Shown here piece by piece: positions 36,521 through 55,794 of a stretch of DNA of 64,000 nt (within the stretch, counting starts at the first letter, position 1; each line of letters begins with the position of its first letter). Location of the stretch: NCBI RefSeq assembly GCF_002837055.1, contig NZ_PDKP01000001.1, forward strand, positions 235,285 to 299,284, read 5' to 3'. Made by a program: the position numbers and the translations under genes. The notes below the pieces were generated by a model. That model ran no database searches. It worked only from the letters and a program-made list of their open reading frames with translations, and was not told where the DNA came from. The stretch comes from Lactobacillus apis (GTDB lineage: Bacteria; Bacillota; Bacilli; Lactobacillales; Lactobacillaceae).

Positions 36521-37180
36521 TTAATTATGCTTTTTCCATGCGGTTTCTATTTGCTCATAGCTTAATTTGGAGGTATCAGGATAGAGCAAGTAGGCTTCGC
36601 TAAGTTCATTTTCATTACCGACACCTACTGAAAAGGCACCTGAAGAGTTTATTGCTTTAATTCCAGCGATTGAGTCTTCGATTCCAACGCATTCTTTTGG
36701 AGATAAGTTAATGGCATCAGCTGCGGCGATGAAAATGTCGGGTGCTGGTTTTCCTGCTGCAACTTTGCTTGGATTTGCAATTGCATCGAAAGTATTAATA
36801 AGCTCTAATTTTTCTAGTATATAAGGACCGTTCAAGCTTGCAGAAGCTAGTGAAAGCTTAACATTATGTGCCTTAAGTTCAGAAATAAGTTCAGATATTC
36901 CAGGTAGGATATTAGCAGGGGTTAAGTTGGCTAATAACTCACGAAAAACATCATTCTTTTCTTCAGTCATTTTGTTAAATTCAGAATCAGTTACTTTAAT
37001 GTCTAAATAGTTCAGAATTGCAGTAAGTGAATCAGCACGACTTACGCCTTTAGTTTGGACTTCTAATTCATCAGGTAATTCGCGATTAAAGTGGTCTTTG
37101 ATGAGTTTTCGCCAGGCTTGAAAGTGGTAAACCGAAGTATCGGCAATTACACCATCAAGATCAAATAGTACGCCCTTCAT
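36521..37180 (-). CDS. pgmB: Beta-phosphoglucomutase
   Basis: Converts beta-glucose-1-phosphate to glucose-6-phosphate. A 219-aa HAD enzyme with FDLDGVIADT (nucleophile Asp 8 and acid/base Asp 10), SLASAS (phosphate Ser), KPAPDIF (Lys) and GIEDSIAG (metal ligands). The cap has the TKGVSRADSL substrate loop typical of PgmB. Its start overlaps the GH78 gene by 20 bp, so it is the third gene of a GH3-GH78-pgmB operon. No GH65 phosphorylase, the usual supplier of beta-glucose-1-phosphate, is in this locus. Confidence 0.92.
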   Translation of the reverse strand: MKGVLFDLDGVIADTSVYHFQAWRKLIKDHFNRELPDELEVQTKGVSRADSLTAILNYLDIKVTDSEFNKMTEEKNDVFRELLANLTPANILPGISELISELKAHNVKLSLASASLNGPYILEKLELINTFDAIANPSKVAAGKPAPDIFIAAADAINLSPKECVGIEDSIAGIKAINSSGAFSVGVGNENELSEAYLLYPDTSKLSYEQIETAWKKHN

Positions 37181-39980
37181 TTAAAAACTTCCTTTCACTA
37201 GCCAATGGAGTCTCTGCTAAAACAGCTTTGATGTTAGCGAAATCTTCATCGGAGATATTAACAAATGGTAACATTGTATTCATTTCAATTAATGAACTTC
37301 CACCAAATGTGTCAAGGTTATTTTGATCTTGTAAGAAACCAAAGACACCATTCAGTGGTGACAATTTTTCTACTAATTCAGAATCTGCCATAAGGTCTTT
37401 GGCTGGCATATCAATGTTGTAGTATTCGATATAGCTAGAACTTGGAACATAACTGATAGAATATTGTCCACCGGTTAGCTTAAGTGGCAGACTAGTGGCT
37501 TCACCATTAAGCTGAACTTCACCAGTAGCACGTGGTAATTTCACTGTTACTTGTTGACCAAATGGAATATTCAGGTTGAGCTTGATTGTGTGTTGTTCAT
37601 CAGTTTCAAGTTGGTATTCAATTTGAAGATCACCGTATGAACTTTCATAATGACCTTGAACATGCTTGAGACGGTAATCAAATTGTGGTGCCAAAGTGAC
37701 TTCTTGATAGCCATTTGTTTGAGAACTGATTCCAAGTACTTGCTGGTAAACCCACTGCATAATCGCACCAATAGAGTAGTGGTTAAGTGAGTTCATTCCT
37801 TCAGGATTCATTGAGCCATCAGGCATAACTGAATTCCAACGTTCCCAAATTGTTGTTGCACCTAAATTAACTGCATAAAGCCAACTTGGGAAGTCTTCAT
37901 TTAAGAAGATTTGTGTTGCAAGCTTGTGTTCGCCGTTTTCAGAAAGAACACGACAAACAATTGGTGTACCAACAAAACCAGTCTTTAGATGGTTATTATC
38001 TTTACCAAGGCGAGTAACTAGGTCTTTAACGACACGTTGCTTTTGCTCATCAGGTACTAAATCAAAGGCTAGAGCTAATGCATAAGCTGTTTGTGTATCA
38101 ATTGATAAACGTCCAGTTGCAGTAATATATTCGTTAGAAATAGCTTTTTTAATTGCTTTAGCTTGTTTTGAGTACTTAGCAGCATCATCGCTAAAACCAA
38201 GTATTTGTGCTGTTTCAGCGACAATAGAAGTAGAGTAGTAATAGTAAACAGAAGCAATGAAGTCTTCATCAGTTTTACCAGTTGGCATTGCTGGATTTTC
38301 ACCATCTAGTGAAAGCCAGTCACCGAATTGGAAGCAGCCTGTCCAAAGGTTCTTAGTTGAAGTGTTTTTACCAATCCATTCAACCCAAGCTTTCATGCTT
38401 GAGTAATTTTGACGTAAAATAGCGGGATCATTATATGCTTGGTAAACAGTCCATGGAATAATTGTTGCAGCATCACCCCAAATTGCAGCGCCACCGCTAC
38501 CATTACCCATTGCTGGAGCATACATTGTGAGCATGCCATCATGAGCATTCTGTTCGATTTGCATATCACGTGCATATTTCTTAAAGAATGCATAGGTATC
38601 CATGTTCAAAACGGCTGTTGCTGAAAATACATCTGCATCACCAGTCCAACCAAGACGTTCATCACGTTGAGGACAGTCGGTAGGGACATCAAAGAAATTA
38701 CTCTTTTGACCCCAAATTACGTTTTGCAAAAGGCGATTGACTTTCGCATTATCTGTTGTAATTCCGCCAGTAGTTTTCATATCGGAGTAAATGACTGCTG
38801 AGCGAAAATCTTCTTTCTTAAGTGGCTTGGTATTACCTGTAACTTTTGCATAGCGGTAACCATAGTAAGTAAAGTGGGGACGAACCCATTTTTCTTTACC
38901 ACCAGAAGTATACTTGAAGGCGGCGCGGGCTTCACGAAGGTTGTCCCGGTAAAAATTACCGTTTTGTAAAATTTCCCCAACTTGAAGTTCAATTGTTTGT
39001 CCCGCAGGTTCATGATTGAAAAGCTCAGGCCAACCTGCATGATTTTGGCCAAAATCTAAGACAGTTTCACCAGCAGGAGTTTGAATGATTTCTTTAACTG
39101 GTAAGTATTCTTCAACTTTAAGTGGCAAGCTTAAACGATCATGCAGAATTTCTTTAGAGTGATCAATGATTACTGCTGGTTCCCAGTTAGTAATTTCCTT
39201 TGTGTCATCTAAGTCCTCACCGTAGTAAATTGCTGACTTAGTAACTTTTCCAGAAGTTGTTTGCCATGAATCATCCGTGTTAATTACTTCTTCAGTCCCA
39301 TCAGCAAAGGTTAAATGCAGTTCTGCAATGGCCATTTGACGATCACCATAAATATTTTCTTGACCGCCGTCAAAGCCGAAGTTTCCTTTATACCAACCGT
39401 CGCCTAGAGAAATCAATAATTCATGCTTTTGAGTTTTTTGTAAAAAACTAGTGACATCATATGTCTGAACTTGGGTTACTTGATCATAGGCAGTTACACC
39501 AGGCGCAAGTAATTCATCACCAATTTTTTCGTTGTTGAAGTAAACTTCGTAAACACCTAAACCAGTCATGTAAAGACGTGCACTAGTAATTTCTTTATCT
39601 AATGCAAATTCTTTTCTTAACAAAGTATTTTGCAAATCCTTGTTACTGTTTCCAATCCAGTTAGCTGAAAATGGTTCAGTTATTTTTCCAGTTTCGAAAA
39701 AACTATCCTTAGTTATTTCATCACCGGCATTTTGAACGGAAACAGACACTGTATAGTGGGTACGAGGTTCTAACTCGATTGCAAAATCAAAAAAGTTATT
39801 GTCATAGTTTTGCCAATCAGAGTCGTAAACAGCTTCATCGGTTTTTATAATGACTCTTTTTTTGGTTTCCGTCATAGGTTTAGAGCTATTTACACTAAAT
39901 TCAATATGTAAATGGTTATCTAAGTCAAAACCAAGTGGAGTGGTCATATGGTTAATTGAAATTTGACTAATTTCGATCAT
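37161..39980 (-). CDS. GH78 alpha-L-rhamnosidase
   Basis: Hydrolyses terminal alpha-L-rhamnose from plant glycosides. The 939-aa protein lacks a signal peptide, so acts in the cytoplasm. N-terminal beta domains (up to about 330) precede the (alpha/alpha)6 catalytic domain with DVPTDCPQRDERLGWTGDA, the GH78 acid-bearing motif, and MNSLNHYSIGAIMQWVY with the second conserved region. After the usual C-terminal beta domain there is an extra tail of roughly 95 residues (from PAKDLMADSELVEKL) that I do not recognise. Second gene of the operon, 12 bp after GH3. Confidence 0.92.
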   Translation of the reverse strand: MIEISQISINHMTTPLGFDLDNHLHIEFSVNSSKPMTETKKRVIIKTDEAVYDSDWQNYDNNFFDFAIELEPRTHYTVSVSVQNAGDEITKDSFFETGKITEPFSANWIGNSNKDLQNTLLRKEFALDKEITSARLYMTGLGVYEVYFNNEKIGDELLAPGVTAYDQVTQVQTYDVTSFLQKTQKHELLISLGDGWYKGNFGFDGGQENIYGDRQMAIAELHLTFADGTEEVINTDDSWQTTSGKVTKSAIYYGEDLDDTKEITNWEPAVIIDHSKEILHDRLSLPLKVEEYLPVKEIIQTPAGETVLDFGQNHAGWPELFNHEPAGQTIELQVGEILQNGNFYRDNLREARAAFKYTSGGKEKWVRPHFTYYGYRYAKVTGNTKPLKKEDFRSAVIYSDMKTTGGITTDNAKVNRLLQNVIWGQKSNFFDVPTDCPQRDERLGWTGDADVFSATAVLNMDTYAFFKKYARDMQIEQNAHDGMLTMYAPAMGNGSGGAAIWGDAATIIPWTVYQAYNDPAILRQNYSSMKAWVEWIGKNTSTKNLWTGCFQFGDWLSLDGENPAMPTGKTDEDFIASVYYYYSTSIVAETAQILGFSDDAAKYSKQAKAIKKAISNEYITATGRLSIDTQTAYALALAFDLVPDEQKQRVVKDLVTRLGKDNNHLKTGFVGTPIVCRVLSENGEHKLATQIFLNEDFPSWLYAVNLGATTIWERWNSVMPDGSMNPEGMNSLNHYSIGAIMQWVYQQVLGISSQTNGYQEVTLAPQFDYRLKHVQGHYESSYGDLQIEYQLETDEQHTIKLNLNIPFGQQVTVKLPRATGEVQLNGEATSLPLKLTGGQYSISYVPSSSYIEYYNIDMPAKDLMADSELVEKLSPLNGVFGFLQDQNNLDTFGGSSLIEMNTMLPFVNISDEDFANIKAVLAETPLASERKFLNEGRTI

Positions 39981-39992
39981 TTTTAGCTCCCT

Positions 39993-41696
39993 TTACAAGC
40001 GTGTGTCAAAACGACCACAGAATGGATCAACTGGGTTAGTACCAATGAATTTTTCTTCGCCGGTCATCTTTCTCAGCAATGCATCAATGGTAACGTCATT
40101 ACCTGTATATGCGTTGACGTAAGTTGAAACCATTGGAATATCGAAGAGGTGATATGGGTTGCAAGTTGAAACAAAAACAGTTGGAATGTCTTTCATGAAC
40201 CATGGAGCATCAGCAGCCATTAAGTGAATCCAGTCAAGACGGGTAGTGGTTTGATTAGAAGCAGTTTCAACGTTACCAACGTAAAAAGCTAAGTCAAATT
40301 GGTCTTTTTCGTATTGAACACCACCTGCAAATACTTCTTGGAAGTTTAAGTGTTGGCGATCAAAGACAGTAACTTCAAAGCCTTTTTCTTCAAGTTTTTC
40401 CTTAAATTTAGCAGTAACCTTGCCACCTTCTTTAAAGCCACCGTCATCGTTGTCACCTAAAACTACTAGGCGAACACGAGGATATTTTTTAGGTGTAATT
40501 GGCAACAAGTTGTCACGATCTTTAACAAGGGTAACTGATTCAGTTGCAACTTTAGCAGCTAACTTTTCATGTTCAGCAAGCTTTAAGTCAATGTTACTTG
40601 AAGTAGGTTCACAAAGTTCACAATCAGTGTTCATAACACCTTGTGCTACCTTAGTTCCGATAATTCTAGTAACAGCTTCATCCACTCTGTCCATTGAAAT
40701 GGTACCGTTAGCCACTGCATCAGTAATGAACTTGTAATCTTCGTCAATGTCTTTGTTGAATAAGATCATGTCGATTCCTGCGTTAATTGTAGCTGGTAAA
40801 GCTTCAGAACGTGGCATGATTGCATTATAACCAATCATTGGCGTAGCGTCTGTAATTGTCAAACCGTTGAAGTTTAAAACGTCGCGAAGTAGGCCATCAA
40901 TTAATAATTTAGAAGTTGAGGCTGGACGCAAGTCTTTATCTTCAATTCCTGGTTGTAATTTTTGTTCCCAAGCAGGTTGCATAATGTGAGCAATCATAAT
41001 ACTTGGTAAGCCATTTTCAATTAAGTGGTGGTATATTTCACCGTATGATTCCATCCATTCATCAGCAGAAAGTGAATTGATTGAACTTAAAAGGTGTTGG
41101 TCGCGTTCATCAACACCGTCACCAGGGAAGTGTTTAGCAACAGGAATAACGTGATTAGCATTAAGTCCTTCGATTTCTGCATCGGACATTTTAATTACGC
41201 GGTCCTTGTCACTACCAAAAGTACGTGAGTTCATAATTGGATTGCGGAAGTTCATGTCAAGGTCAACAATTGGTGCAAAAGACATGTTGCCTCCAACTTG
41301 TTTTGCTTCATAACCTGAAACATCACCGAGGTTATATGCGTTTTCTGGATTATCAGTTGCTGCCACTTGAAGTGGACGCCCAACCCAAGTACCTTCATTA
41401 ACCAAGCCATTACCACCAGCTTCAAGGTTTGCGGCAATTAATAGTGGAATATCACTTGCTTCTTGTGAAGTGGCAATTTCATGTTGCAATTTTTTAGCAG
41501 CGTCAGGACGGTACATGATTCCGCCTGGTTGATACTTTTTAACAAATTCTTTTAAGTCTGTGTTTTCTTCGTCTTCACCAATAACGAAGAACAGTTGTCC
41601 AATTTTTGCTTCAGTTGACATGCTAGCTACTTTTTGCTTTACAAAGTCGATTTGTGAAGCAGACAAGTTATAAGGCTTTTTCGATAAGTCTGTCAT
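39993..41696 (-). CDS. GH3-family enzyme with NagZ-type Asp-His dyad
   Basis: Cytoplasmic GH3 protein of 567 aa, no signal peptide. An N-terminal TIM barrel carries KHFPGDGVDERDQH (188-201), where Asp 199 and His 201 match the acid/base dyad of NagZ-type enzymes, and GLTITDATPMIG with nucleophile Asp 283. A C-terminal alpha/beta sandwich (about 380-567) follows. Ordinary GH3 beta-glucosidases use a C-terminal Glu instead. It heads the operon with GH78 and pgmB and is divergent from the AraC gene. Beta-glucosidase, beta-hexosaminidase or retaining phosphorylase activity all remain possible. CGGAGGAAA is the SD. Confidence 0.85.
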   Translation of the reverse strand: MTDLSKKPYNLSASQIDFVKQKVASMSTEAKIGQLFFVIGEDEENTDLKEFVKKYQPGGIMYRPDAAKKLQHEIATSQEASDIPLLIAANLEAGGNGLVNEGTWVGRPLQVAATDNPENAYNLGDVSGYEAKQVGGNMSFAPIVDLDMNFRNPIMNSRTFGSDKDRVIKMSDAEIEGLNANHVIPVAKHFPGDGVDERDQHLLSSINSLSADEWMESYGEIYHHLIENGLPSIMIAHIMQPAWEQKLQPGIEDKDLRPASTSKLLIDGLLRDVLNFNGLTITDATPMIGYNAIMPRSEALPATINAGIDMILFNKDIDEDYKFITDAVANGTISMDRVDEAVTRIIGTKVAQGVMNTDCELCEPTSSNIDLKLAEHEKLAAKVATESVTLVKDRDNLLPITPKKYPRVRLVVLGDNDDGGFKEGGKVTAKFKEKLEEKGFEVTVFDRQHLNFQEVFAGGVQYEKDQFDLAFYVGNVETASNQTTTRLDWIHLMAADAPWFMKDIPTVFVSTCNPYHLFDIPMVSTYVNAYTGNDVTIDALLRKMTGEEKFIGTNPVDPFCGRFDTRL

Positions 41697-41844
41697 AATT
41701 TTCCTCCGTGTGCTATAAATATAAATTGATTTCGAGTTTATTTTAATCTAGTGTTTGTTTTTGTGCTATTGCCAAAAGTCATAAAAGTTGTGTTGATATC
41801 ACAGTTTTATTTTTTAATGCTTTTAATCATAAAAGGAGGTAAAA

Positions 41845-42855
41845 ATGAAAGACCAAGTATTGAGTTTACTTAGGAAAAACAATGCGCCGCGAGATTGGGA
41901 AGATGTGCTTGCTACTGTTAAAGAAAGCGGTAATTTGACTAAAAGAGTAGGCAAGGTAAACGATGAGCCAATTTATCGTTTTTTTGACACATATTCAGAT
42001 GATTTGACTTTAAACAGTAGTTCAATTTCAATTGCGGTGCAGCCAACTGAATCATTCGTACCGTATCATCTTCATAATTATATTGAGATTATGATACCCT
42101 TAGTGGAGGATTGCACTGTGGTATTAGAGCATTCAGAAGTCAAGGTCAATCAGGATGATTTGATTTTTATGGGCAATCGAACCGTTCATAAAGTGAAACC
42201 GATTAGTAAAAATGGAATAGTAGTAAATATTGCCTTGCGAAGCTCAGCTTTTTCACTAAATGAACTAGATTATTTAAAAAACAAAAAGAATAGTTCAAAT
42301 ATCTCAAATATTCTTTTCTCACTTTTGTCTGATGAAGAATATGGTGAAGGAAGATATAGTCTATTCAAGACAAATCATGATCGAAAAATAACTGAGCTTA
42401 TCTATGATGTAATCGATGAATATTATCATCCTGACATTCAATCTGACCAGCTGATTAGGTTGGAAATGCTCACACTTTTTTCGCGGTTAATCCGTCAGAC
42501 AGCAAATTCAGAAATAAAGGTAAAAGATTATCGCAAAAAGAACAATAATCTGTTGTCACTTCTTTTATACATCGAAAAACACTACAGCCACATAACCCTA
42601 CAAGAAATGGCTAAGCGTTTTGGCTTTAATCCTAATTATTTGTCTGATTATCTTAAAAAACAAACCGGTAAAACCTTTATTCAGCTGGTTCACCTGCAAA
42701 GAATAAATGTTGCTGCTGAATACTTGACTTATACCACTGCTCCAATTGAGCGAATCGCAAATCGAGTTGGGTATGAAAATCCATCATATTTTTATAAAAT
42801 TTTCAAAAAATATTTTGGAATTTCACCAGCTGAATACCGTAATAAAAATAGTTAA
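41845..42855 (+). CDS. AraC-family regulator with cupin sensor
   Basis: A 336-aa regulator with an N-terminal cupin domain (VPYHLHNYIEIMIPL, then a second His in NRTVHKVKP) and C-terminal double HTH (ITLQEMAKRFGFNPNYLSDYLKKQTGKTF and IANRVGYENPSYFYKIFKKYFGISPAEYR). AAAGGAGG precedes ATG 41845. It lies between the GH3-GH78-pgmB operon and genes whose promoters share a 39-bp box, so it is the best candidate for the activator binding that box. Inducer is probably a glycoside or its product; not shown. Confidence 0.92.
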   Translation: MKDQVLSLLRKNNAPRDWEDVLATVKESGNLTKRVGKVNDEPIYRFFDTYSDDLTLNSSSISIAVQPTESFVPYHLHNYIEIMIPLVEDCTVVLEHSEVKVNQDDLIFMGNRTVHKVKPISKNGIVVNIALRSSAFSLNELDYLKNKKNSSNISNILFSLLSDEEYGEGRYSLFKTNHDRKITELIYDVIDEYYHPDIQSDQLIRLEMLTLFSRLIRQTANSEIKVKDYRKKNNNLLSLLLYIEKHYSHITLQEMAKRFGFNPNYLSDYLKKQTGKTFIQLVHLQRINVAAEYLTYTTAPIERIANRVGYENPSYFYKIFKKYFGISPAEYRNKNS

Positions 42856-42915: not shown

Positions 42916-42954
42916 TGGGAAATGAATATAATTCTTCTGTTTTTTGGATATGGT
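42916..42954 (+). promoter_or_regulatory. Glycoside-regulon box A
   Basis: TGGGAAA, 14 bases, then CTGTTTTTTGGATATGGT. The right end overlaps the -35 position of a promoter whose -10 is TATACT at 42975-42980. A cre-like TGAAAGCG begins at 42995, just downstream of the -10. Serves the MFS gene at 43028. Confidence 0.85.
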
Positions 42955-43027
42955 CAAATTCTTGCTCTGGCTAATATACTTTTTAAGTGAAATCTGAAAG
43001 CGAATTCTAGCTAAGGAGAAGAATTTA

Positions 43028-44221
43028 ATGAATAAAAAACAGATATCCAAAGCGATAGGTATTCTAAGTATGAACCTATTGTTAATGCTCTCAACTGCTG
43101 TAACTTCAGCTATAGCTGCGATTGCAAAATCATTTCCATCTGAGCCAATTTCTAAAGTTCAATTAATTGGTTCAATTCCTCAATTAGGTCAAATTATTGC
43201 TACTGCTTTATTTGCCTACTTGACATTTAAAATGACCAGAAAGAATCTAGGTCTTTTAGCAGTTGCTGTTGTTGGAATTGCTGGAGTTATTCCAGCTATC
43301 TACAGCAGTAGCTTAAATATTATTTTAGCCTGCATGGTTTTAGTAGGTTTTGGTACGGGAACAATTACTAATGTTGTGCCAGTGCTATTACAAGAGAACT
43401 TCGAAGGTGAAGCTCGCGCTACAACAATGGGTTGGGCAACAGGTGTTACTAACGTCGGAATGATGATCTTTACCGCTCTTGGTGGAGTTCTTGGAAGTGC
43501 AAATTGGCGTAATCTTTTCTGGGTATACGCATTAGCTTTAATTGTCTTCATTTTGGCACTTTTATTGATTCCACAAGATAGTAAGCTTGCTAGTTCAGAC
43601 AAAGATAAGAAGTCTGGTGAAAAGACAAGTTTCTGGAAGCTATTAAAGAACTTTAATGGTCTTGTTTATGTACTTTATCTTGTAAACTTCATGCTTTCAT
43701 TAGCAATGATGACTTTCCTTGCAAACCAATCTATCGTTTTAGCAGCTCAAGGAAAAGGAACTGCATATGTGGCAATGGTAACCGCGCTTGGTAATGTTGG
43801 TGGTATTATCACTGCTACTTTCTTAACTTATATTAGAAAATTCACAAAGAGCGATACAATTGCTTGGGGATTTGTTGCATTCGCGCTATCATTCATCTGT
43901 ATTGTATTCTCATCAAATGTTGTGCTTCACATTATCGGTAATGCCTTCTCAGGGATGGGGATTGTTCTAGTTAATGCCACAGCTCCATTTGAAATGTCAC
44001 TTTTGACAGACCAGAAGCAATTCCCATTGGCTATTTCAATTAATACATTACTTGGTTCAATTGCGGGAATGATTGTTCCAATGTTACTTGCAGCAGTAAA
44101 AATTGCACCAGGACATGATTCTTATATTGCAGGAATTGTAATCTCAGCTGTAACTGCTGCTGTACTGTTCATTACTCGCTTTGGTTCAAGAGTAGAAAAG
44201 AACAAACAAAAAGAAGCTTAA
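43028..44221 (+). CDS. MFS transporter in the glycoside locus
   Basis: A 397-aa protein with 12 hydrophobic segments and a central charged loop (SDKDKKSGEKTS). Layout resembles CynX/YbcL-type MFS permeases. TAAGGAG precedes ATG 43028. It has its own box-containing promoter and a terminator, so is a single-gene transcript inside the regulon. It may import an unphosphorylated glycoside or rhamnose-containing disaccharide, or export aglycone; all three are inference. Confidence 0.82.
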   Translation: MNKKQISKAIGILSMNLLLMLSTAVTSAIAAIAKSFPSEPISKVQLIGSIPQLGQIIATALFAYLTFKMTRKNLGLLAVAVVGIAGVIPAIYSSSLNIILACMVLVGFGTGTITNVVPVLLQENFEGEARATTMGWATGVTNVGMMIFTALGGVLGSANWRNLFWVYALALIVFILALLLIPQDSKLASSDKDKKSGEKTSFWKLLKNFNGLVYVLYLVNFMLSLAMMTFLANQSIVLAAQGKGTAYVAMVTALGNVGGIITATFLTYIRKFTKSDTIAWGFVAFALSFICIVFSSNVVLHIIGNAFSGMGIVLVNATAPFEMSLLTDQKQFPLAISINTLLGSIAGMIVPMLLAAVKIAPGHDSYIAGIVISAVTAAVLFITRFGSRVEKNKQKEA

Positions 44222-44290
44222 TTACCAAATCTAGATATGCCAGTGCTGATAATGGCTCAGTACCTCCAAAGAAAAATACATCTAAGTAAA

Positions 44291-44326
44291 AAGAAGACCA
44301 GTTTTTAATTTGAAACTGGTCTTTTT
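44291..44326 (+). terminator. Terminator after the MFS gene
   Basis: A ten-bp perfect stem (AGACCAGTTT and complement), extended by A-T pairs, with a T run. Confidence 0.88.
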
Positions 44327-44347
44327 ATGTTCATTAGTTTTAAAAAC

Positions 44348-44386
44348 TGGGAAAAAGACATATATTTCCTGTTTTTTGAATATGGT
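44348..44386 (+). promoter_or_regulatory. Glycoside-regulon box B
   Basis: Same layout as box A: TGGGAAA, 14 bases, CTGTTTTTTGAATATGGT. The -10 TATACT is at 44406-44411, 19 bases further on, and a cre-like TGAAAGCGAT starts at 44421. Serves the EIIC-GH1-EIIB operon. Confidence 0.85.
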
Positions 44387-44455
44387 TATGTCATTTTTTT
44401 ACTTATATACTTTATTTTACTGAAAGCGATTTATGTTATTTAAGGAGTTTAAGAA

Positions 44456-45730
44456 ATGAAAAAATTTCAAGAGTGGCTAGAAAAATATCTAGTTCCGTTT
44501 TCAAATAAGCTAGGACAAAATAAGGTCCTACAAAGTATTTCATCTGGAATGGTTATGACACTGCCAGTGACAATTGGTGCGTCTATTTTCTCTATTTTTG
44601 CCAGTTTTCCAATTAAACCTGTAGCAGATTGGTTTGCTAAAGTTGGTATTACACCATCCATGACTGCTATCGTTAACGGTACAATGAACATTTTAGCTGT
44701 TTTCATTGCCTTTACAATTGCTTATGACTATGCTCAAAAGTCTAAGGCAAACGGTGTTGTGTCAGGTCTATTAAGTTTGGCCAGCTTTTTCATTTTGATG
44801 CCGCAAGTTATTCCAGGCAAAACACCAATTAATGCATTTAAGATTAACTATCTAGGTAGTGAAGGTATAATTGTTGCTATTTTGCTATCAATTTTAATTG
44901 GTGTCTTCTATGTTAAATTAAGTAGAAACAAGAAGTTAACAATTAAACTACCTGATTCAGTTCCTAGCATGGTTAGTTCATCTATTGAACCTTTAATTAT
45001 TGGAATTATTATTTTTGTTGGCGTATTTATTGTAAGAGCTATTTTTGACTTTTCACCATTTGGAAATGTTTTTGACTTTGTTAATAAGCTAATTACAACT
45101 CCATTATTACATGTAGGTGGTTCACCAATTACATTAATTTTAATTATGGTATTATCCAACCTATTATTTACCTTTGGTATACATCCAGCTGCTATTCAGT
45201 CAGTTATTATTCCAATTGTAATTTCAATGATGGTAGGTAGTACTCCAGCATATCAAGCTGGGAAAACTATCCCATATTTAAGTAATCTAGTTGTATTTTC
45301 ATTTGCAAATAATGATGCTGCTGGTGCTACACTAAGTTTAGTTCTAGTTGCGTTAGTTTTTGGTAAGTCTAAGCGTTACAAGGAATTTTTCAAAGTTTCA
45401 GCTTTACCAAACATTTTTAACATCAACGAGCCAATAATTTTTGGTATGCCGATTGTATTAAACCCAATTATGTTTATTCCATTTATTTTATCTAGTTTTG
45501 TATCCAGTGGTGTAGCTTTATTAGCTGTTAAAATTGGCTTCATTACTAATTACAATCCAAGCTTAGGAATGGGTATGCCTTGGACAATGCCTAAATTAGT
45601 TGCTGATGCAATGATTATGGGCTGGCAAGGTGCAGTTATTTGGATTATCAACTTTGCATTAATGTGTGCAATCTATCTTCCATTCTTTAAGGTTGCAGAC
45701 AAGCAAGCATTAGAGGAGGAAAGTAAATAA
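44456..45730 (+). CDS. PTS lactose/cellobiose-type EIIC
   Basis: Membrane channel component of a cellobiose-family (Lac) PTS, 424 aa with about ten hydrophobic segments. N-terminal FQEWLEKYLVPFSNKLGQNKVLQSI, central HVGGSPITLILIMVLSNLLFTFGIHP and NINEPIIFGMPIVLNPIMFIP (split here by motif) are signatures of CelB-type EIIC. AAGGAG precedes the ATG. First gene of an operon with a GH1 and a separate EIIB, but no EIIA, which must come from elsewhere. Confidence 0.93.
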   Translation: MKKFQEWLEKYLVPFSNKLGQNKVLQSISSGMVMTLPVTIGASIFSIFASFPIKPVADWFAKVGITPSMTAIVNGTMNILAVFIAFTIAYDYAQKSKANGVVSGLLSLASFFILMPQVIPGKTPINAFKINYLGSEGIIVAILLSILIGVFYVKLSRNKKLTIKLPDSVPSMVSSSIEPLIIGIIIFVGVFIVRAIFDFSPFGNVFDFVNKLITTPLLHVGGSPITLILIMVLSNLLFTFGIHPAAIQSVIIPIVISMMVGSTPAYQAGKTIPYLSNLVVFSFANNDAAGATLSLVLVALVFGKSKRYKEFFKVSALPNIFNINEPIIFGMPIVLNPIMFIPFILSSFVSSGVALLAVKIGFITNYNPSLGMGMPWTMPKLVADAMIMGWQGAVIWIINFALMCAIYLPFFKVADKQALEEESK

Positions 45731-45732
45731 AA

Positions 45733-47151
45733 ATGAGCATTCAAAAGCAACTCAAGGACGATTTTCCAGCTGACTTTTTGTGGGGAGCAAGTACTTCAGC
45801 TTTTCAGGTTGAAGGTGCAGCTAATGAAGACGGTAAAGGCGTTACAGTTGCTGATTTACGTTCACAGAAAAGTAAGTATATAGATACTTCAGTTGCAGCT
45901 GATCATTATCATCATATTGAAGAAGATGTAGCCTTAATGGCCGAGCTTGGCCTAAAAAGTTACCGTTTTTCAATTTCTTGGGCACGTATTTATCCTCATG
46001 GTAATGATGAGGAGCCAAACCAAAAGGGTATTGATTTTTACAATAAGCTAATCAACTTATTGGTCAAAAATAAAATTGAGCCGATAGTTACATTGTTCCA
46101 TTTTGATTGTCCAGAAGATTTGGTTAAACAATATGGTGGATGGGCCAATAGAAAAGCAATTGATGATTACTATCGCTATGCTAAAACTGTCTTTGAACAA
46201 TTTGGTGACCGTGTAAAATACTGGTTAACTATCAATGAACAGTCACTAATTGCCAATGTACCAGCGATGAACGGAATTACCGACACTGACATGCATCGTT
46301 TAAGAGAAAAAGGCGAGAATTCAAACTACAATATGTTTTTAGCTCAAGCTAAGGTTTACTCACTGTGTCATAAAATGTTTCCTAATTCCAAAATAGGTCC
46401 AGCTGTATCATATATGACCAATTTCCCTTACGATCATACTTCTGCTAATGCACTAAAGAGTAAATCAATGGAAGATATGATTTCCTTTATTGATATGGAC
46501 GTTGCTCTTCGTGGTGAATTACCTAGCTATTATTTACGCTACCTTAAGGAAAGCAATATAACACTTGATGTACATGAAGGTGATGCTGAAATATTGCAAA
46601 ATGGAAGAGCTAATTTCTTAGGCCTAAACTGGTACTCAACTTCAGTGTTCAAATTAAGCAATGAAGAAAGCCCTAAAATGCTCGATGGTGTTATTTCTAA
46701 TGTCGAGAAGGTTAGGGACGATCGTTTAATGAATTCTGAATGGGACTTTTCATACGATCCTGTTGGTTTACGCTTTGCCTTGCAAAAGGTTAATGATCGC
46801 TATCCAAATATTCCAATTATTATTACAGAATGTGGTTGGCCAGAACGTGAAGAGCTTGAAAATGGAAAAGTTCATGATTCAAAGAGGGTTAAGTACCTTA
46901 ACGGACATATTTATGAATTACGTGAAGCGATTAAGGATGGCGTAAATGTGATTTCATTTAATCCTTGGTCATTTTTGGACTTATTAAGTGTTAACGATGG
47001 CATGGATAAACGATATGGCTTAGTCTTTGTTAATCGTGACAATAATTCTGAACGTGATATGAAGCGTTATCCAAAAGATAGTTTCTACTTTTATCAAAAA
47101 GTAATTGCCACAAACGCTAAAAATGTTACTAAATTAGAGATAGATGAATAA
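45733..47151 (+). CDS. GH1 6-phospho-beta-glucosidase-like enzyme
   Basis: Cytoplasmic GH1 protein, 472 aa. Acid/base Glu 169 lies in TINEQ and nucleophile Glu 366 in IITECGWPE, both retained although the usual ENG reads ECG. The C-terminal SVNDGMDKRYG preserves the Ser, Lys and Tyr positions that bind the 6-phosphate in phospho-glucosidases. The N-terminal DFLWGASTSAFQVEGA is typical. It lies between EIIC and EIIB genes, so it should cleave the phosphorylated PTS substrate. Divergence of several subsite motifs suggests an unusual aglycone or linkage. Confidence 0.88.
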   Translation: MSIQKQLKDDFPADFLWGASTSAFQVEGAANEDGKGVTVADLRSQKSKYIDTSVAADHYHHIEEDVALMAELGLKSYRFSISWARIYPHGNDEEPNQKGIDFYNKLINLLVKNKIEPIVTLFHFDCPEDLVKQYGGWANRKAIDDYYRYAKTVFEQFGDRVKYWLTINEQSLIANVPAMNGITDTDMHRLREKGENSNYNMFLAQAKVYSLCHKMFPNSKIGPAVSYMTNFPYDHTSANALKSKSMEDMISFIDMDVALRGELPSYYLRYLKESNITLDVHEGDAEILQNGRANFLGLNWYSTSVFKLSNEESPKMLDGVISNVEKVRDDRLMNSEWDFSYDPVGLRFALQKVNDRYPNIPIIITECGWPEREELENGKVHDSKRVKYLNGHIYELREAIKDGVNVISFNPWSFLDLLSVNDGMDKRYGLVFVNRDNNSERDMKRYPKDSFYFYQKVIATNAKNVTKLEIDE

Positions 47152-47162
47152 GGAGTTTTAAT

Positions 47163-47480
47163 ATGGCTGAAAAAACAATCATGCTATGCTGTTCTGCAGG
47201 AATGAGCACAAGCTTACTTGTTACTAAAATGCAAAAAGCAGCTGAAGACCAAGGAAAAGATGTGGAAATTTTTGCTTGTCCTGCAGCGGAAGCAGATGAC
47301 AACCTTGCGCAAAACAAAATTGACTGCATTTTACTTGGACCTCAGGTTCGTTATATGGAAAACGAATTTAAGCAAAAAGTTGATGGTAAAAACATTGGAC
47401 TAGCAGTAATTGATATGCAAGCATATGGTATGATGGATGGAGCCAAAGTATTAGATCAAGCATATCAGTTAATGAGTTAA
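47163..47480 (+). CDS. PTS lactose/cellobiose-type EIIB
   Basis: A 105-aa cytoplasmic phosphotransfer protein. The P-loop-like LCCSAGMSTSLL holds the phosphorylated Cys at position 10 (Cys 9 is next to it). GPQVRYMENEFK is the second conserved region. TAAGGAG precedes the ATG. Cognate of the EIIC two genes upstream. Confidence 0.92.
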   Translation: MAEKTIMLCCSAGMSTSLLVTKMQKAAEDQGKDVEIFACPAAEADDNLAQNKIDCILLGPQVRYMENEFKQKVDGKNIGLAVIDMQAYGMMDGAKVLDQAYQLMS

Positions 47481-47501
47481 TAAAGTATACTAGAAGTTAA
47501 T

Positions 47502-47531
47502 AAAAGGTTTGAACTGGGGTCAAACCTTTTT
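47502..47531 (+). terminator. Terminator of the EIIC-GH1-EIIB operon
   Basis: AAAAGGTTTGA pairs with TCAAACCTTTT around a seven-base loop. Very similar stems end the two GH39 units (49194 and 50906). Confidence 0.9.
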
Positions 47532-47595
47532 TGTTTAGCTTAAAAGTTGGAATTAAAAAATGGCTACTCTAGTTTATACGAATTATTCCGAAAGA

Positions 47596-47634
47596 TGGGA
47601 AAAGAACAGCTATTTCCTGTTTTTTGGATATGGT
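47596..47634 (+). promoter_or_regulatory. Glycoside-regulon box C
   Basis: TGGGAAA, 14 bases, CTGTTTTTTGGATATGGT. The -10 TATAAT is at 47655-47660 and a cre-like TGAAAACGGATACA is at 47672-47685. Serves the broken GH39 gene. Confidence 0.85.
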
Positions 47635-47727
47635 CTGCTTTTAAATTCATACTTTATAATAAAATCACAATTGAAAACGGATACATCGATAATTTGAGCA
47701 TATTAGCTCAATAAGAGGAGAAAAAAC

Positions 47728-49193
47728 ATGTTAAATTTCAAAGTAGAGCAGAATGAAAAAACTAATTTTCCACATTACTGAGAAGTGTGCGTAGGGAGTT
47801 GTCATGCATATACCGCTTTGCGAGAAGATTATCGCGAGCAGCTAATTAAAGCGCATAATGAATTAGGTTTTAAATATGTTCGTTTCCATGGTTTATTTGA
47901 TGACGAAATGAGTGTATGCATCGAAAACTTTGATTTTGAAGGTAATTCTCAGGGAATCACGTATAATTTTATTAATATTGACAAGATTATTGATTTTCTA
48001 CTTCAAATAGGTATGAAACCATTTTTGAAATTGGGTTTTATGCCTTCATGTCTTGCGTCTGGCAATGGTAGAATATTTGTCTATGGTGGAAATAATTCAA
48101 TGCCTAAGTATGATAAAGCATGGGAAGAGTTGATTAGCCGTTTATCAAGCATATCATTGATCGTTATGGTGAGTCAGAAGTAGAAACCTGGTTCTTTGAA
48201 GTTTGGAATGAACCAAATTTGCCACTATTTTTTTCTGGCTCGCAGGAAGATTATTTCCACCTATATGAGATGACGGCAAGAACAGCTAAAAAGATTGATA
48301 GTAAGCTTAGGTTTGGAGGGCCAGCAACTTCATACAATTCTTGGATTCCTGAAATGATTGACTTTTGTGAGAAAAACAATGTTCCACTTGACTTTGTTTC
48401 TACTCATCATTATCCAACAGATGATCCATTATGGAAGAGTGGATTGGATATTGAAGAGTTTTTTAAGCAAACAGGTGGAAAAGAGACAGACTATCATCGT
48501 GGAATTTTAAAAGAAATGACTGCTAGAACAAAACAAGAGTCTAAAAATTATCCTTTATATTATACTGAGTGGAATGTCTCGGCTATGCTTGGCGATACAA
48601 TTCATGATGAACCATATGCTGCTGCAATGGTCGCAAAAACTTTAGCAGATAATGATGGTTTAGTTGATGGTTATTCATTTTGGACTTTTAGTGATATTTT
48701 CGAAGAGCAATCTCAAAAGCCAGGTGTTTTTCATGGAGGGTTTGGTTTACAAACAGTTGATGGAGTTGAAAAGCCGGTCTATCGCATATTTGAAATTTTC
48801 CATGAGTTAGGAACAAAGAGAATCAAAGTGGAAAGTAGTCAAAGTAGTACTACCGAGGTATTAGCCGCACAAAAGGGTAACGACTTACAAGTCTTAGTAT
48901 ATAACCATAATGTTCCAAGTGAGCCAATTGAAACTGAAGAAGTTAAAATTGATTTAGGAACGGATAATGCATATGATGCATGGATCGAACGAATCGATTC
49001 CAATCATACCAACCCAATGAAAAAGTGGGAAGAAATTGGAAAGCCAGAATATCTTAAGCAACCAGAAATTGATCAGTTAAGAGAAAACTCTAAATTGCAG
49101 AAAGAAAACATTGAGATTAAAGAAGGACAACTGACGCTCAAAATGCCACCACACTCATGCGCATTTGTTACAATCCCAGGATTCTTCAAATAA
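47728..49193 (+). pseudogene. GH39 beta-xylosidase-like gene, broken
   Basis: Nearly identical in layout to the intact paralogue at 49433. The frame opens at ATG 47728 after AGAGGAG, but codon 18 is TGA (47779-47781) where the paralogue has TGG (Trp). A second lesion is a one-base loss in the T run at 48141-48143: repairing it joins ISRF to IKHIIDRYG and restores the frame to the end at 49193. Catalytic motifs EVWNEPN and YYTEWN are intact in the second part. Box, SD and terminator remain, so decay is recent. Could be sequencing error only if both lesions were wrong. Confidence 0.9.
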
Positions 49194-49222
49194 AAAGGTT
49201 TGAACTAGGTTCAAACCTTTTT
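49194..49222 (+). terminator. Terminator after the GH39 pseudogene
   Basis: AAAAAGGTTTGAAC pairs with GTTCAAACCTTTTT with almost no loop (TAG). Similar to the terminators at 47502 and 50906. Confidence 0.85.
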
Positions 49223-49275
49223 GTTGGAAAAATTAATAAGTTTAGGGCTCTAAATTTAACAATCACAAAAAATAT

Positions 49276-49289
49276 TGAACTCGCTTTCA
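49276..49289 (+). promoter_or_regulatory. cre-like site upstream of GH39
   Basis: TGAACTCGCTTTCA fits the CcpA operator pattern TGnnAnCGnTnnCA in most positions and lies seven bases before box D. Confidence 0.55.
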
Positions 49290-49295
49290 AGCAAC

Positions 49296-49334
49296 TGGGA
49301 AATAGCTATAACTCTTCTGTTTTTTGAATATGGT
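49296..49334 (+). promoter_or_regulatory. Glycoside-regulon box D
   Basis: TGGGAAA, 14 bases, CTGTTTTTTGAATATGGT, with -10 TATACT at 49355-49360 and a cre-like TGTAAGCGC at 49373. Serves the intact GH39 gene. Confidence 0.85.
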
Positions 49335-49432
49335 CAAAGGATGTTAAGTACTTGTATACTTTGATTAATCTTTGTAAGCGCATCCTTATATTGCTTTTGA
49401 GAGCTTACAATGTTCTAAATAAGGAGACAAAA

Positions 49433-50899
49433 ATGAATAATTTTAAAATTAATGGAAAAGTAGAAACTAAGTTCCCACACTACTGGGAAGAATGTGTCGG
49501 AAGCTGTCATGCATATACCGCTTTACGAGAAGATTATCGCGAGCAGCTGATTAAAGCGCATAATGAACTGGGATTTAAATATGTTCGTTTTCATGGTATT
49601 TTTGATGATGAAATGAGTGTTTGCATCGAAAATTTTGATTTTGAAGGCAATTCTCAAGGAATTACGTACAACTTTATCAATGTCGATAAGGTATTTGATT
49701 TTCTTGTAGATATTGGTATGAAACCTTTTGTTGAACTTAGTTTTATGCCATCATGCTTAGCTTCTGGTGAAGGCAGAGTCTTTGTATATGGTGGAAATAA
49801 TACTATGCCGAAATCAGATGAGCTTTGGGAAGATTTAGTTGAACGATTCTTAAACCATATTATTGATCGCTATGGTAAAAAAGAAGTTGAATCATGGTTC
49901 TTTGAAGTTTGGAATGAACCTAACTTACCACTATTCTTTGCTGGAACGCAAGAGGACTACTTCCATTTATATGAAATTACTGCTAAAACCGTTAAAAAGG
50001 TAGACGAAAATCTACGTGTTGGGGGACCAGCAACTTCATTTAATTCATGGATTCCTGATATGATTAATTTTTGTGAAGGAAATGATGTTCCACTTGATTT
50101 TATTACAACTCATCACTATCCAACGGATGATCCGTTGTGGAAGAGCGGCTTAGGTATTGAAGAATTTTTTAAGAATTCTGAACAACAACAAATGGATTAT
50201 CACCGCGGAGTTTTGAAAAAAATGACGACGCAATCTCACGAACAGGCGAAAGGATATCCACTGTATTATACTGAGTGGAACGTCTCAGCAATGGTAGGAG
50301 ATATGATTCATGATGAACCATATGCTGCTGCAATGGTTGCAAAAACTTTAGCAGATAATGACGGCCTAGTGGACGGTTACTCATTCTTTACTTTTACTGA
50401 TATTTTTGAAGAACAATCTCAAAAGCCAGGGGTCTTCCATGGTGGATATGGTTTACAGACAGTTCAAGGTATTGAAAAGCCAGTTTACCGTATATTTGAA
50501 ATTTTCCATGAGCTAGGAACAAAGCGAATCAAAGTGGAAAATGATACTGAAAGTACTGCTGAAGTTTTAGCTGTTCAAAAAGGTAATGATCTACAAGTCT
50601 TAGCATATAACCATAATGTTCCAAGTGAGCCAATTGAAACTGAAGAAGTTAAAATTGATTTAGGAAAAGATAATGCATATGATGCTTGGATAGAACGAAT
50701 TGATTCCAATCATGCCAACCCAATGAAAAAGTGGGAAGAAATTGGAAAGCCAGAATATCTTAAGCAACCAGAAATTGATCAGTTAAGAGGAAGCTCTAAA
50801 TTGCAGAAAGAAAACATTGAGATTAAAGAAGGACAACTGACACTCGAAATGCCACCACATTCATGTGCATTTGTTACAATTCCAGGATTTTTTAATTAA
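49433..50899 (+). CDS. GH39 beta-xylosidase-family enzyme
   Basis: Cytoplasmic GH39 protein of 488 aa from ATG 49433 after AAGGAG; an earlier in-frame ATG at 49352 falls at the -10 element and is rejected. Acid/base Glu 162 is in EVWNEPN and nucleophile Glu 281 in YYTEWNVSA. The first 30 residues contain HYWEECVGSCHAYTAL, typical of bacterial GH39. GH39 enzymes release xylose, or other sugars in newer members; here the rhamnosidase neighbourhood suggests plant glycoside or saponin side chains. Paralogue of the broken gene upstream. Confidence 0.9.
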   Translation: MNNFKINGKVETKFPHYWEECVGSCHAYTALREDYREQLIKAHNELGFKYVRFHGIFDDEMSVCIENFDFEGNSQGITYNFINVDKVFDFLVDIGMKPFVELSFMPSCLASGEGRVFVYGGNNTMPKSDELWEDLVERFLNHIIDRYGKKEVESWFFEVWNEPNLPLFFAGTQEDYFHLYEITAKTVKKVDENLRVGGPATSFNSWIPDMINFCEGNDVPLDFITTHHYPTDDPLWKSGLGIEEFFKNSEQQQMDYHRGVLKKMTTQSHEQAKGYPLYYTEWNVSAMVGDMIHDEPYAAAMVAKTLADNDGLVDGYSFFTFTDIFEEQSQKPGVFHGGYGLQTVQGIEKPVYRIFEIFHELGTKRIKVENDTESTAEVLAVQKGNDLQVLAYNHNVPSEPIETEEVKIDLGKDNAYDAWIERIDSNHANPMKKWEEIGKPEYLKQPEIDQLRGSSKLQKENIEIKEGQLTLEMPPHSCAFVTIPGFFN

Positions 50900-53287: not shown

Positions 53288-54901
53288 ATGCGTGCTGTTC
53301 TAAAAGAGCTTAATAGCAAGTACAAGTTTGAGTATTTTCTCTTTTTAGGAATGAGTACTGTTAGTACATGCATTGAGACATCTAATGTTATTTTGGAAGG
53401 TATGCTATTAAATTCACTAGTATATAAGGCTGATAGGACATCATTTATACGTAATATAATAGTGATAATAGTTTTAAACCTAATAAGATTGTTTTTATCT
53501 TTTTTTATAAACAAAATTCAAATTCTAAAGTTCAGAAAAATAAACATAGAAGTAAACGATATTATAATAAAGAAGCTTTATTCAAAAGATACGTTAGAAG
53601 TCTTAAAACTTGATCCTATTCAAACTGCAGATAGAATTACGGAAGATACTAATGAAATCTTAAATTTCTTGTTTCAAACGGTAAATCAAATCGTTTCAAT
53701 TACTATTTCCTCAATTATAATTTTTATTTATATTATTAAAGCTAAATCTCGCTTTTTCTTGCTAGTAATGATTTTGCTACCAGCCTATATTATTTTGTAC
53801 CTTTTTTTAAAACCAAAAATATTCAAAATAAACTTAGAATTAAGACGAATTTACAATGAATATTTTTCTGGATTTGCTGAATGGCTTAATAGATATGTTG
53901 AAATTAAAGGTAATAAACGGGAAGAAATAGAATCCAGAAGATGGAAAAAGACCAAAGTTTCTCTTTTAAATATTACAAGAAAAAACTTTCTTCTTAATTT
54001 AGGTATGTCTACTTGTGAAATTGTCTTACAATTGATTTTCCAGATAATATTGTTTATTAATGGCGGATTGGCCGTAATATCAGGAAGAATGACAATTGGA
54101 TCTTTTTCTGTTCTTTTCCAATACTTTAATCAATTATTAGGACAAGTGGATGAAATCTTTTCTATTTTGTTTAACTTTGAGTCTTTTCGAGTTGCATACA
54201 TGAGAATTGATCAATTGATGTCTATCCGGAATGAAGTAGACGGAGCAATAGTCATTTCTAATGTTGAAAATATACAAGTTCACAATTTCAATATTAGCTT
54301 GGAGGCACATAAGACTTTATTTTCAAAAGAACTTACATGCACTTTTAATAATCCTGGTTTTTATGTTATTAGAGGCAAAAATGGAATAGGAAAATCTACT
54401 TTTTTAAGGACGATAATTGGACTGTATACGTCAGCAAAAAAAGGAACAATTTTAATAAACAATATAGATATTGACTTAATAAATAAGGAAAAGCTGAGAG
54501 AAAATAATATGAGCTGTTTATTCCAAGATACGGTTCTTCCAAATTGTCTTGTAAGGGAATATTTAGATATGTATGTAAATGAGAGTAACGAAAACTGTAT
54601 TTCTGGTGATCAATATTTCCAAAAAGTATTTAGCTCTTCTCAATTTAATATAAAAAAAGTGTTAGATAAGAAAATGACTGAGCTTTCAACGGGCGAAATA
54701 CAATTAGTAAAGCTTTACTCTGCTATTTTGAAAAAGAAAGCGCACTGCTTTTTATTAGACGAGCCACTAGCTAATATTTACCCTGAATTGCAATCAGATT
54801 TATTATGCTTATTGGAAAAAATTGCACAAACTAATCTAGTTATAATCATTAGTCATGACCTTGAAATTGGGGAAAAAACTAAAAATATAAGAATAAGATA
54901 A
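53288..54901 (+). CDS. ABC exporter (fused membrane and ATPase domains)
   Basis: A 537-aa half-transporter. About six hydrophobic segments in residues 15-275 are followed by an ATPase with Walker A GKNGIGKST (363-371), signature LSTGEIQ (466-472), Walker B FLLDEP (488-493) and His 523. No C39 peptidase domain. Likely exports or gives immunity to the peptide product of this locus. AGGTGAT is the SD. Unusually AT-rich, with many ATA Ile codons unlike neighbouring housekeeping genes, suggesting acquisition. Followed two bases later by the McbB-like gene. Confidence 0.85.
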   Translation: MRAVLKELNSKYKFEYFLFLGMSTVSTCIETSNVILEGMLLNSLVYKADRTSFIRNIIVIIVLNLIRLFLSFFINKIQILKFRKINIEVNDIIIKKLYSKDTLEVLKLDPIQTADRITEDTNEILNFLFQTVNQIVSITISSIIIFIYIIKAKSRFFLLVMILLPAYIILYLFLKPKIFKINLELRRIYNEYFSGFAEWLNRYVEIKGNKREEIESRRWKKTKVSLLNITRKNFLLNLGMSTCEIVLQLIFQIILFINGGLAVISGRMTIGSFSVLFQYFNQLLGQVDEIFSILFNFESFRVAYMRIDQLMSIRNEVDGAIVISNVENIQVHNFNISLEAHKTLFSKELTCTFNNPGFYVIRGKNGIGKSTFLRTIIGLYTSAKKGTILINNIDIDLINKEKLRENNMSCLFQDTVLPNCLVREYLDMYVNESNENCISGDQYFQKVFSSSQFNIKKVLDKKMTELSTGEIQLVKLYSAILKKKAHCFLLDEPLANIYPELQSDLLCLLEKIAQTNLVIIISHDLEIGEKTKNIRIR

Positions 54902-54903
54902 CT

Positions 54904-55794
54904 ATGAAATCATATATAATACCACAGTTTTTAATTTTAAATAATGATATTAATAATGCAGTAGTCCAAAATAAAAATGGGATAAATCACCTTACAAATA
55001 AAAGCATAATTAGTTTCTTTAATAAGATAGACAATCTTCACAAAAATTTAGTTACTGAGCAGTTTTTAGAAGATTATTTTGGTTTAGAAATATATAAGTC
55101 AACTTTAAAGTTTATGTTGGATTCTCAGCTTCTCGAAGAAAAAGTTGAATATTATTCTGAATATAAAAATATAGTAGTTTTTACCAATAACAAAAAAATA
55201 TATAACTTGATGTCTAAAGTTATGAATGAAAAAAATGACACACTAACGAGCTACTACCTTAATACTTTTCAAAGCGACTGGTTTGAAGCAAAGATAAAAG
55301 AAATATCTGATGATAGCTTGATTATAAGTATTTTTAGTCCTTTAGACTTTAATGAATATACTTGGCTCTGTGATTTTTTAAGAGAAAACAACAAAATCTA
55401 TTGTACTGCTTTTCCGTATAATAAAAAATTTTACTTTTCTAATATATATATAGTTATAAATGGAAAAATTCATGTCCAAAGTGCTTTATTTCTGAGTTAA
55501 TTTCAAGTTTAAGATCTACAGGCAAATTTTATTCTATGCCGACTTTTCAAACAGTTAATGAAAGAAGCTATTATGAACTGTCAAATGGTTTGTATTTTGC
55601 AGCAGGAAACAATTGATGCAAAGCAATCTAATTTGAAACATAATGCATATCTTTATAATCGATATGGCAACCGCACAAAAACAAAATTAAAGAAAAACAG
55701 ACTGGTAAAGACTTATGGCGTACCTATTAGAATAAAGAATAAGGAATACTACATTGTAAATGTGAACAGCTTTATAAAGAAAGCAACTTTGTAA
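54904..55794 (+). pseudogene. McbB/E1-like RiPP maturation protein, frameshifted
   Basis: The frame from ATG 54904 runs 198 codons. Its N-terminus has a winged-helix, precursor-binding look (IISFFNKIDNLHKNLVTEQF ending in SQLLEE), followed by a Rossmann-like part (NEYTWLCDFLRENNKIY). Adding one A to the run at 55453-55457 continues the frame as INGKNSCPKCFISELISSL, giving the CxxC zinc motif of E1/McbB-type proteins. A second one-base shift near 55608-55613 leads to DAKQSNLKHNAYLYN and on to TAA 55792. Repaired length is about 296 aa, the size of McbB. No YcaO or SagB-type gene follows, so the pathway is incomplete here. Confidence 0.7.

Follow-up and report, generated by a model that had tools for sequence, protein, structure and literature searches.

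At the Escherichia coli promoters pBAD and rhaBAD, the AraC-family proteins AraC (at I1-I2) and RhaS use two half-sites of about 17 bp each, the proximal of which reaches into the -35 element. Here we analyzed a 64,000-nt stretch of Lactobacillus apis DNA (the window, by which the whole stretch is meant; assembly GCF_002837055.1, contig NZ_PDKP01000001.1, positions 235,285 to 299,284, forward strand; genome of 1.59 Mb, 87% complete) in which a two-part promoter element, termed the box, lies close to an AraC/XylS-family regulator gene (41845..42855, plus strand, 336 aa). We report the boxes, their rigid geometry, their conservation across genera, their co-occurrence with the regulator, and their recurrence in front of the same target genes. 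Judged from these sequence data, the box is very probably the operator of the 41845 protein, which would act by class II activation on a plant glycoside regulon gated by CcpA.

The available text of PMC3870299 gives RhaS sites the form of an inverted repeat and predicts AraC-family RhaR regulons with a direct repeat of 21-bp period in Bacillales, Bacteroides, and Enterococcus. The regulons of 30 lactic acid bacteria genomes were derived by comparative genomics, many of them overlapping with that of CcpA (PMC3616900); neither a rhamnosidase regulon nor an AraC-type glycoside regulon was seen in the available text of that report. The box motif itself was not seen in the literature searched, a search whose scope left out supplementary files and subscription papers.

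Boxes and promoters in the window

A first-pass annotation of the window had described four copies of a two-part box, TGGGAAA-N14-CTGTTTTTTGRATATGGT, and all four were found with 0 mismatches on the plus strand, at 42916..42954 (box 1, before a gene for an MFS transporter), 44348..44386 (box 2, before an operon of phosphotransferase system [PTS] and glycoside hydrolase [GH] family 1 genes), 47596..47634 (box 3, before an interrupted GH39 copy), and 49296..49334 (box 4, before an intact GH39 copy). The pattern occurred exactly four times in the window and 0 times in 100 shuffles, ruling out a chance origin. The interval of 14 bp was exact as described, but its bases were not simply variable: they are partly conserved, and the left half-site extends as CTGTGAAATNRACAYA. 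Across the whole genome, the right half at up to 2 mismatches was found at the four window sites only, and 15 additional places appeared at 3 mismatches, versus 5 for the reversed pattern (up to 3 mismatches). Right-half matches at 2 to 3 mismatches also occurred in genomes without the regulator and were background; therefore, a profile was needed. This profile, R1, was built from 26 boxes, the window's five among them, and matched each of the four forward boxes, which had thus contributed to it.

The divergent GH3 operon had been said to carry no recognizable copy. This was wrong, because a matrix of 17 boxes, taken from the window and its relatives with no GH3-side box among them, identified a fifth box on the minus strand at 41765..41803, before the operon encoding GH3, GH78, and a beta-phosphoglucomutase-type (bPGM) enzyme. 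Its position weight matrix (PWM) score was 23.5, and the reversed motif gave no match of at least 10 in 0.48 Mb. The sequence, TGTGATATCAACACAACTTTTATGACTTTTGGCAATAGC (minus strand, 41803 to 41765), has 9 mismatches to the 25 fixed bases of the earlier pattern; R1 matched it with an E value of 9.8e-10, although R1 had been built with that site. With the same 17-box matrix, a box was present at the same place in 21 of 23 AraC loci of the genus, with a score of only 11 in two of the 21 (L085 and L086). The two loci without it were L089 and L088, the latter having no GH3 gene in the stretch examined.

Each forward box was followed by a -10 hexamer at the distance of 19 to 20 bases previously noted: TATACT at 42975..42980 (spacing, 20), TATACT at 44406..44411 (19), TATAAT at 47655..47660 (20), and TATACT at 49355..49360 (20). 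At the divergent promoter, sequence and spacing statistics placed the -10, TAAAAT, at 41740..41745 on the minus strand, 19 bp past the box. The best match to TTGACA at the five window promoters, 16 to 18 bp before the -10, was 3 to 4 of 6 bases, in agreement with the earlier view of the four forward promoters that the right half-site takes the place of a -35.

The same arrangement was observed over 93 distinct boxes, that is, boxes with PWM scores of at least 12 in the scanned loci after identical copies were dropped; L120 to L128, L130, L132, L140, L141, and L152 were excluded because they duplicated loci in the set. The element over this set reads AATCTGTGAAATNRACAYA, six weakly conserved bases, and then MTGNNTTTTNRMWATRGT, the latter being the majority sequence of the right half-site just as the extended left half-site given above is that of the left. 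A TANNNT hexamer began 18 to 20 bp past the end of the box in 91 of the 93 cases, 83 of them at 19 bp (shuffled mean, 10.8; maximum, 20). None of these 91 boxes had a -35 matching TTGACA at 5 of 6 positions, and 9 of 91 matched at 4 of 6, fewer than the shuffled mean of 13.9. The box thus ends at the -35 position, at a near-fixed distance from the -10 and without a canonical -35, which is the arrangement of a class II promoter. A conserved sequence repeated upstream of related operons might also be a transcribed RNA element such as a leader or a riboswitch. However, the box should lie outside the transcript, because 91 of the 93 boxes have a predicted -10 downstream, and an RNA leader element was rejected as extremely improbable.

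When the half-sites were searched for separately at gaps from -6 to 30, using half matrices derived from ungapped hits, all 88 distinct pairs had a single gap. Compared as a direct repeat at 22 bp, the two halves had a likeness score of 0.49, and only 1 of 2,000 column permutations was as good. An inverted-repeat reading of the halves was less significant (93 of 2,000 permutations) and is the less probable of the two.

About 40 bp separate the divergent box from the araC start codon downstream of it, and araC itself may also be under its control. E. coli AraC has a dual action, repression and activation, and the 41845 protein might similarly bind the box to repress, or to repress and activate, rather than serve as a plain activator, since a protein at the divergent box could cover the araC promoter. 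However, five promoters without a good -35 and with a near-fixed distance to the -10 have the arrangement expected of an activator, and we regard a repressor or dual role as unlikely.

Sites resembling the catabolite-responsive element (cre), scored by mismatches to a consensus, were frequent after the boxes. At most 1 mismatch was found in 45 of 93 cases (shuffled mean, 0.7; maximum, 3) and at most 2 in 55 (shuffled mean, 9.1; maximum, 14), the latter starting mainly at offsets of 20 to 24 (17 sites) and 30 to 44 (33 sites). In the window, the four forward promoters each have such a site on the plus strand, at 42995..43008 and 47672..47685 with 0 mismatches (promoters 1 and 3) and at 44421..44434 and 49373..49386 with 1 mismatch (promoters 2 and 4), as expected of a CcpA regulon, whereas the divergent promoter does not.

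The box and the candidate regulator across genomes

The protein encoded at 41845, the proposed binder of the box, has a C-terminal double helix-turn-helix (Pfam HTH_18, 1.6e-22; HTH_AraC, 5.2e-18) with a match to the AraC DNA-binding domain 2k9s (8e-12). Its N-terminal part, where a cupin-like ligand and dimerization domain is expected of the family, had no Pfam match at 0.001. The AlphaFold model was weak, with a mean predicted local distance difference test (pLDDT) score of 61.9 and ten-residue means of about 53 to 86 in the beta-rich part. Foldseek matched this weak model to the regulatory domains of AraC, RhaR, and BgaR with template modeling (TM) scores, by target, of about 0.56 to 0.71; near-full-length matches had root mean square deviations of about 16 to 18 Å, and only the separate-domain matches mean much. 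The protein scored far below the cut-offs of the NCBIfam AraC and RhaS models. Eighteen orthologues that were aligned to it were 48 to 85% identical.

Co-occurrence was examined in a genus set of 75 genomes and a family sample of 301, 15 listed genomes being common to both. A genus orthologue was the best match of at least 48% identity over nearly the full length, and the family cut-off was an E value of at most 1e-75. Boxes were called with profile thresholds of E ≤ 1e-6 (strong) or E ≤ 0.01 (weak) in the genus and E ≤ 1e-4 in the family. The genome-wide searches passed through a first-look filter that limited the candidates scored to 85 or 21 per genome, and some weak boxes may therefore have escaped.

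The AraC orthologue was present in 22 of the 75 genus genomes. Of these 22, 18 had a strong box, compared with 0 of the 53 genomes lacking the orthologue (Fisher P = 7.7e-14, uncorrected for relatedness). At the weak threshold, the box was matched in all 22 and in 3 of the 53 (genomes G027, G045, and G067), where the matches were partial, with E values of 0.004 to 0.009. In the family sample, 19 of 301 genomes had the orthologue and 14 had a box, all 14 among the 19, so that no box was found at E ≤ 1e-4 in the 282 genomes without the orthologue. The box thus tracks the regulator, as the first-pass annotation had proposed should be checked, and in the samples examined no strong box was found without the regulator. 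The outcome that this annotation had named as refuting, wide occurrence of the box among genomes without the AraC gene, was not observed. The GH3 orthologue (at least 73% identity) was present in 19 genus genomes, all of which had the AraC gene; two AraC-lacking genomes, G018 and G027, had a 44 to 45% identical GH3 relative and no strong box.

Because the boxes used to build R1 and the matrices come from the same loci, the genus positives are partly in-sample. The independent test is that of the orthologue loci in other genera, scanned with a matrix to which only Lactobacillus boxes contributed. The scan of named genomes kept 80 loci, and orthologues were found in Companilactobacillus, Lactiplantibacillus, Loigolactobacillus, Bombilactobacillus, Listeria, Enterococcus, and Streptococcus. 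The box was present in 28 of 30 orthologue loci (the misses were L151 and L157, the latter on a 4.4-kb contig) and in 0 of 36 non-orthologous AraC-family loci; the reversed motif had 0 matches in the 1.54 Mb scanned. Forty-seven of the 49 out-of-genus boxes precede GH3 (27 boxes) or MFS (20 boxes) genes, two being unassigned. In Enterococcus florum and E. malodoratus (L145 and L161), a GH1-PTS pair lies between AraC and GH3, and in two streptococci (L155 and L162) the GH3 gene (62% identical) is about 7 kb from AraC. The box stands just before GH3 in all four and therefore follows the target promoter.

These data also bear on whether the boxes are recently duplicated promoter DNA, similar by descent and not selected for binding. 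Boxes 3 and 4 stand before GH39 genes that are tandem copies of each other, so the four forward boxes are not four independent events, and the boxes have short stretches in common beyond the fixed bases. However, the only matches below an E value of 0.9 upstream of the two GH39 copies were a 34-bp stretch resembling a terminator and, over 19 bp, the right half of the box, and the box is kept in other Lactobacillales genera and two Listeria loci, mostly before GH3 or MFS genes. Promoter duplication alone was thus largely refuted, and we consider it very improbable.

Because the co-occurrence of AraC and GH3 in the genus is nearly complete, the proposed binder is identified from linkage as well as co-occurrence. 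This pairing confounds the tracking test, and a second AraC-family gene (23 to 39% identical) is found close to the locus in several genera, so that the box might be read by another regulator, such as an AraC-family paralogue encoded elsewhere. However, only one further match was found in the genome at E ≤ 1e-20 (contig G000:C11, 26% identity over residues 100 to 332), the 36 non-orthologous AraC-family loci have no box, and the 21 genus loci noted above have a box immediately ahead of the AraC gene on the opposite strand. We therefore judge a different reader to be quite unlikely and retain the 41845 protein as the probable binder.

The second AraC-family gene (28 to 39% identical in these cases) adjoins a gene of about 800 aa in L134, L135, L137, L143, L146 to L148, and L158, where it lies between AraC and MFS, and also in L136. 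That gene is GH2-type in L134 and L136, the two that were scanned, and similar-sized genes of L068 and L156 are likewise GH2-type.

Putative target genes and neighboring features

The divergent operon, on the minus strand, starts with a GH3 glycosidase gene (39993..41696; Pfam GH3, 7.5e-64), followed by a GH78 alpha-L-rhamnosidase gene (37161..39980; Pfam Bac_rhamnosid6H, 9.5e-122) and, last, the gene for the bPGM-type enzyme, a HAD protein (36521..37180; NCBIfam TIGR01990, 230.3 bits against a cut-off of 189.4). On the plus strand, box 1 precedes the MFS transporter gene (43028..44221; Pfam MFS_1), which is the second common box target in other genera. Box 2 precedes a lactose/cellobiose-type PTS operon (44456..47480) assigned with Pfam and comprising EIIC (44456 to 45730; also above the cut-off of NCBIfam TIGR00410), GH1 (45733 to 47151), and EIIB (47163 to 47480). 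Boxes 3 and 4 precede the GH39 copies, of which the second is intact (49433..50899; Pfam GH39, 6.3e-123). The first (47728..49193) is 82.5% identical to it over 1,445 nt and is interrupted by an early stop (47779 to 47781) and a frame change, leaving open reading frames at 47785 to 48183 and 48219 to 49193 in different frames; its box, -10, and cre-like site are retained. The interruption could alternatively be an assembly error.

Among the 93 boxes, 83 precede GH3 (42), MFS (23), EIIC (13), GH39 (3), or GH1 (2) genes. GH3-GH78-bPGM plus MFS is the conserved target core, and EIIC-GH1-EIIB and GH39 are additions in this Lactobacillus group. The encoded enzymes point to rhamnosylated and glucosylated plant compounds, and the regulon most likely serves the use of plant glycosides, with rhamnosylated ones foremost.

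In the available text of PMC8456714, on bee-gut lactobacilli, L. melliventris is reported to express a rhamnosidase gene more strongly with pollen and to convert rutin to quercetin; a rutin precipitate was obtained from L. melliventris only, L. kullabergensis depleted a single ion, which was annotated as a flavonoid rhamnoside, and pollen flavonoid deglycosylation differed among four coexisting species. That text names no regulator or operator, and "AraC" occurs in it 0 times. The locus is present in the L. melliventris (L130) and L. kullabergensis (L125) genomes analyzed here, whose strains and genes may differ from those of PMC8456714.

Some boxes were observed far from AraC and mark candidate targets in trans. 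In genome G032, two such boxes precede GH39 (L200:7464) and EIIC (L200:9239), and a third (L201:10267, G037:C2) likewise lies before a PTS or GH39 gene. In L090 (G062:C145), a second AraC orthologue has three boxes around it, at 182, 1287, and 1527, two of which are in tandem before one PTS gene. Elsewhere in the window, an ABC transporter gene with an ATPase followed by a small gene (53288 to 55500) resembles a peptide export cassette by eye, and the translation of 56906 to 57577 reads as a small protein whose start looks like a signal sequence and which has an LPQTG-type wall anchor close to the other end.

Proposed mechanism and relation to known systems

From these data we infer that the 41845 protein recognizes the box, activates transcription, and responds to a ligand, and that CcpA acts on these promoters. 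In the proposed mechanism, two subunits of the 41845 protein would bind the two half-sites of the direct repeat, which are offset by 22 bp, or about two turns of the helix. The half-site nearer the promoter would reach the edge of the would-be -35, and we propose that the bound protein would therefore contact RNA polymerase and replace the missing -35. The geometry suggests class II activation by analogy with AraC at pBAD and RhaS at rhaBAD. Five promoters would be served in this way, those of GH3-GH78-bPGM, MFS, EIIC-GH1-EIIB, the interrupted GH39, and the intact GH39. Since cre-like sites lie just after the -10 at the four forward promoters, CcpA would shut these down when a better sugar is available, a control suggested by the cre-like sites themselves. 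The earlier proposal of an activator regulon of the AraC gene is supported overall, its tracking and geometry having stood and its exclusion of the GH3 operon having fallen.

Several observations weigh against this mechanism. The 93 boxes are not independent, because they were drawn from related species, and 10 of them have no assigned glycosidase or transport gene. Read as an inverted repeat, the halves score nearly as high as in the direct reading (0.45 versus 0.49). No cre-like site at up to 2 mismatches was found for 38 of the 93 boxes, and the best at the window's divergent promoter has 3 mismatches. Only weak boxes were found in 4 of the 22 genus genomes with the orthologue (G003, G007, G016, and G066), of which G007 has the GH3 orthologue and the other three lack it, and no box was found at E ≤ 1e-4 in 5 of the 19 family genomes with the orthologue. 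Finally, because all genus genomes with GH3 have AraC, co-occurrence alone cannot separate an AraC operator from an element of the GH3 cassette read by another protein.

With about even confidence, we further suggest that the box, the 19-bp gap, the -10, and the cre (at about +24 on the GH3 side and about +37 on the MFS side) may form a fixed cassette of long standing in Lactobacillales and Listeria, built around a core of GH3-GH78 and MFS. Bee-gut Lactobacillus would have placed this cassette before PTS-GH1 and GH39, giving a one-signal regulon that would strip sugars off pollen flavonoid glycosides.

The control proposed is of an ordinary kind, newly mapped here. The box provides a portable candidate operator sequence for a regulator group of several Lactobacillales genera and Listeria, and would link the rhamnosidase, GH3, the transporter, and, in this Lactobacillus group, PTS and GH39 as one plant glycoside unit. 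The motif can be used to predict more targets in genomes bearing the regulator, and for bee-gut lactobacilli it offers a candidate genetic basis for pollen flavonoid deglycosylation.

The locus resembles AraC at pBAD and RhaS at rhaBAD in having an AraC-family protein, two half-sites, overlap with the -35, sugar operons, and putative catabolite control. It differs from those E. coli systems in its DNA sequence and its hosts, and in having CcpA, predicted from cre-like sites after the -10, where E. coli uses CRP. The best fit here is a 22-bp direct repeat, in contrast to the inverted repeat given for RhaS in the available text of PMC3870299. The RhaR regulons of the same source likewise combine an AraC-family regulator, a direct repeat, and rhamnose-related genes. 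However, those regulons concern L-rhamnose metabolism, whereas the core here is GH3-GH78-bPGM plus MFS, the Enterococcus RhaR having been compared by its description in that text.

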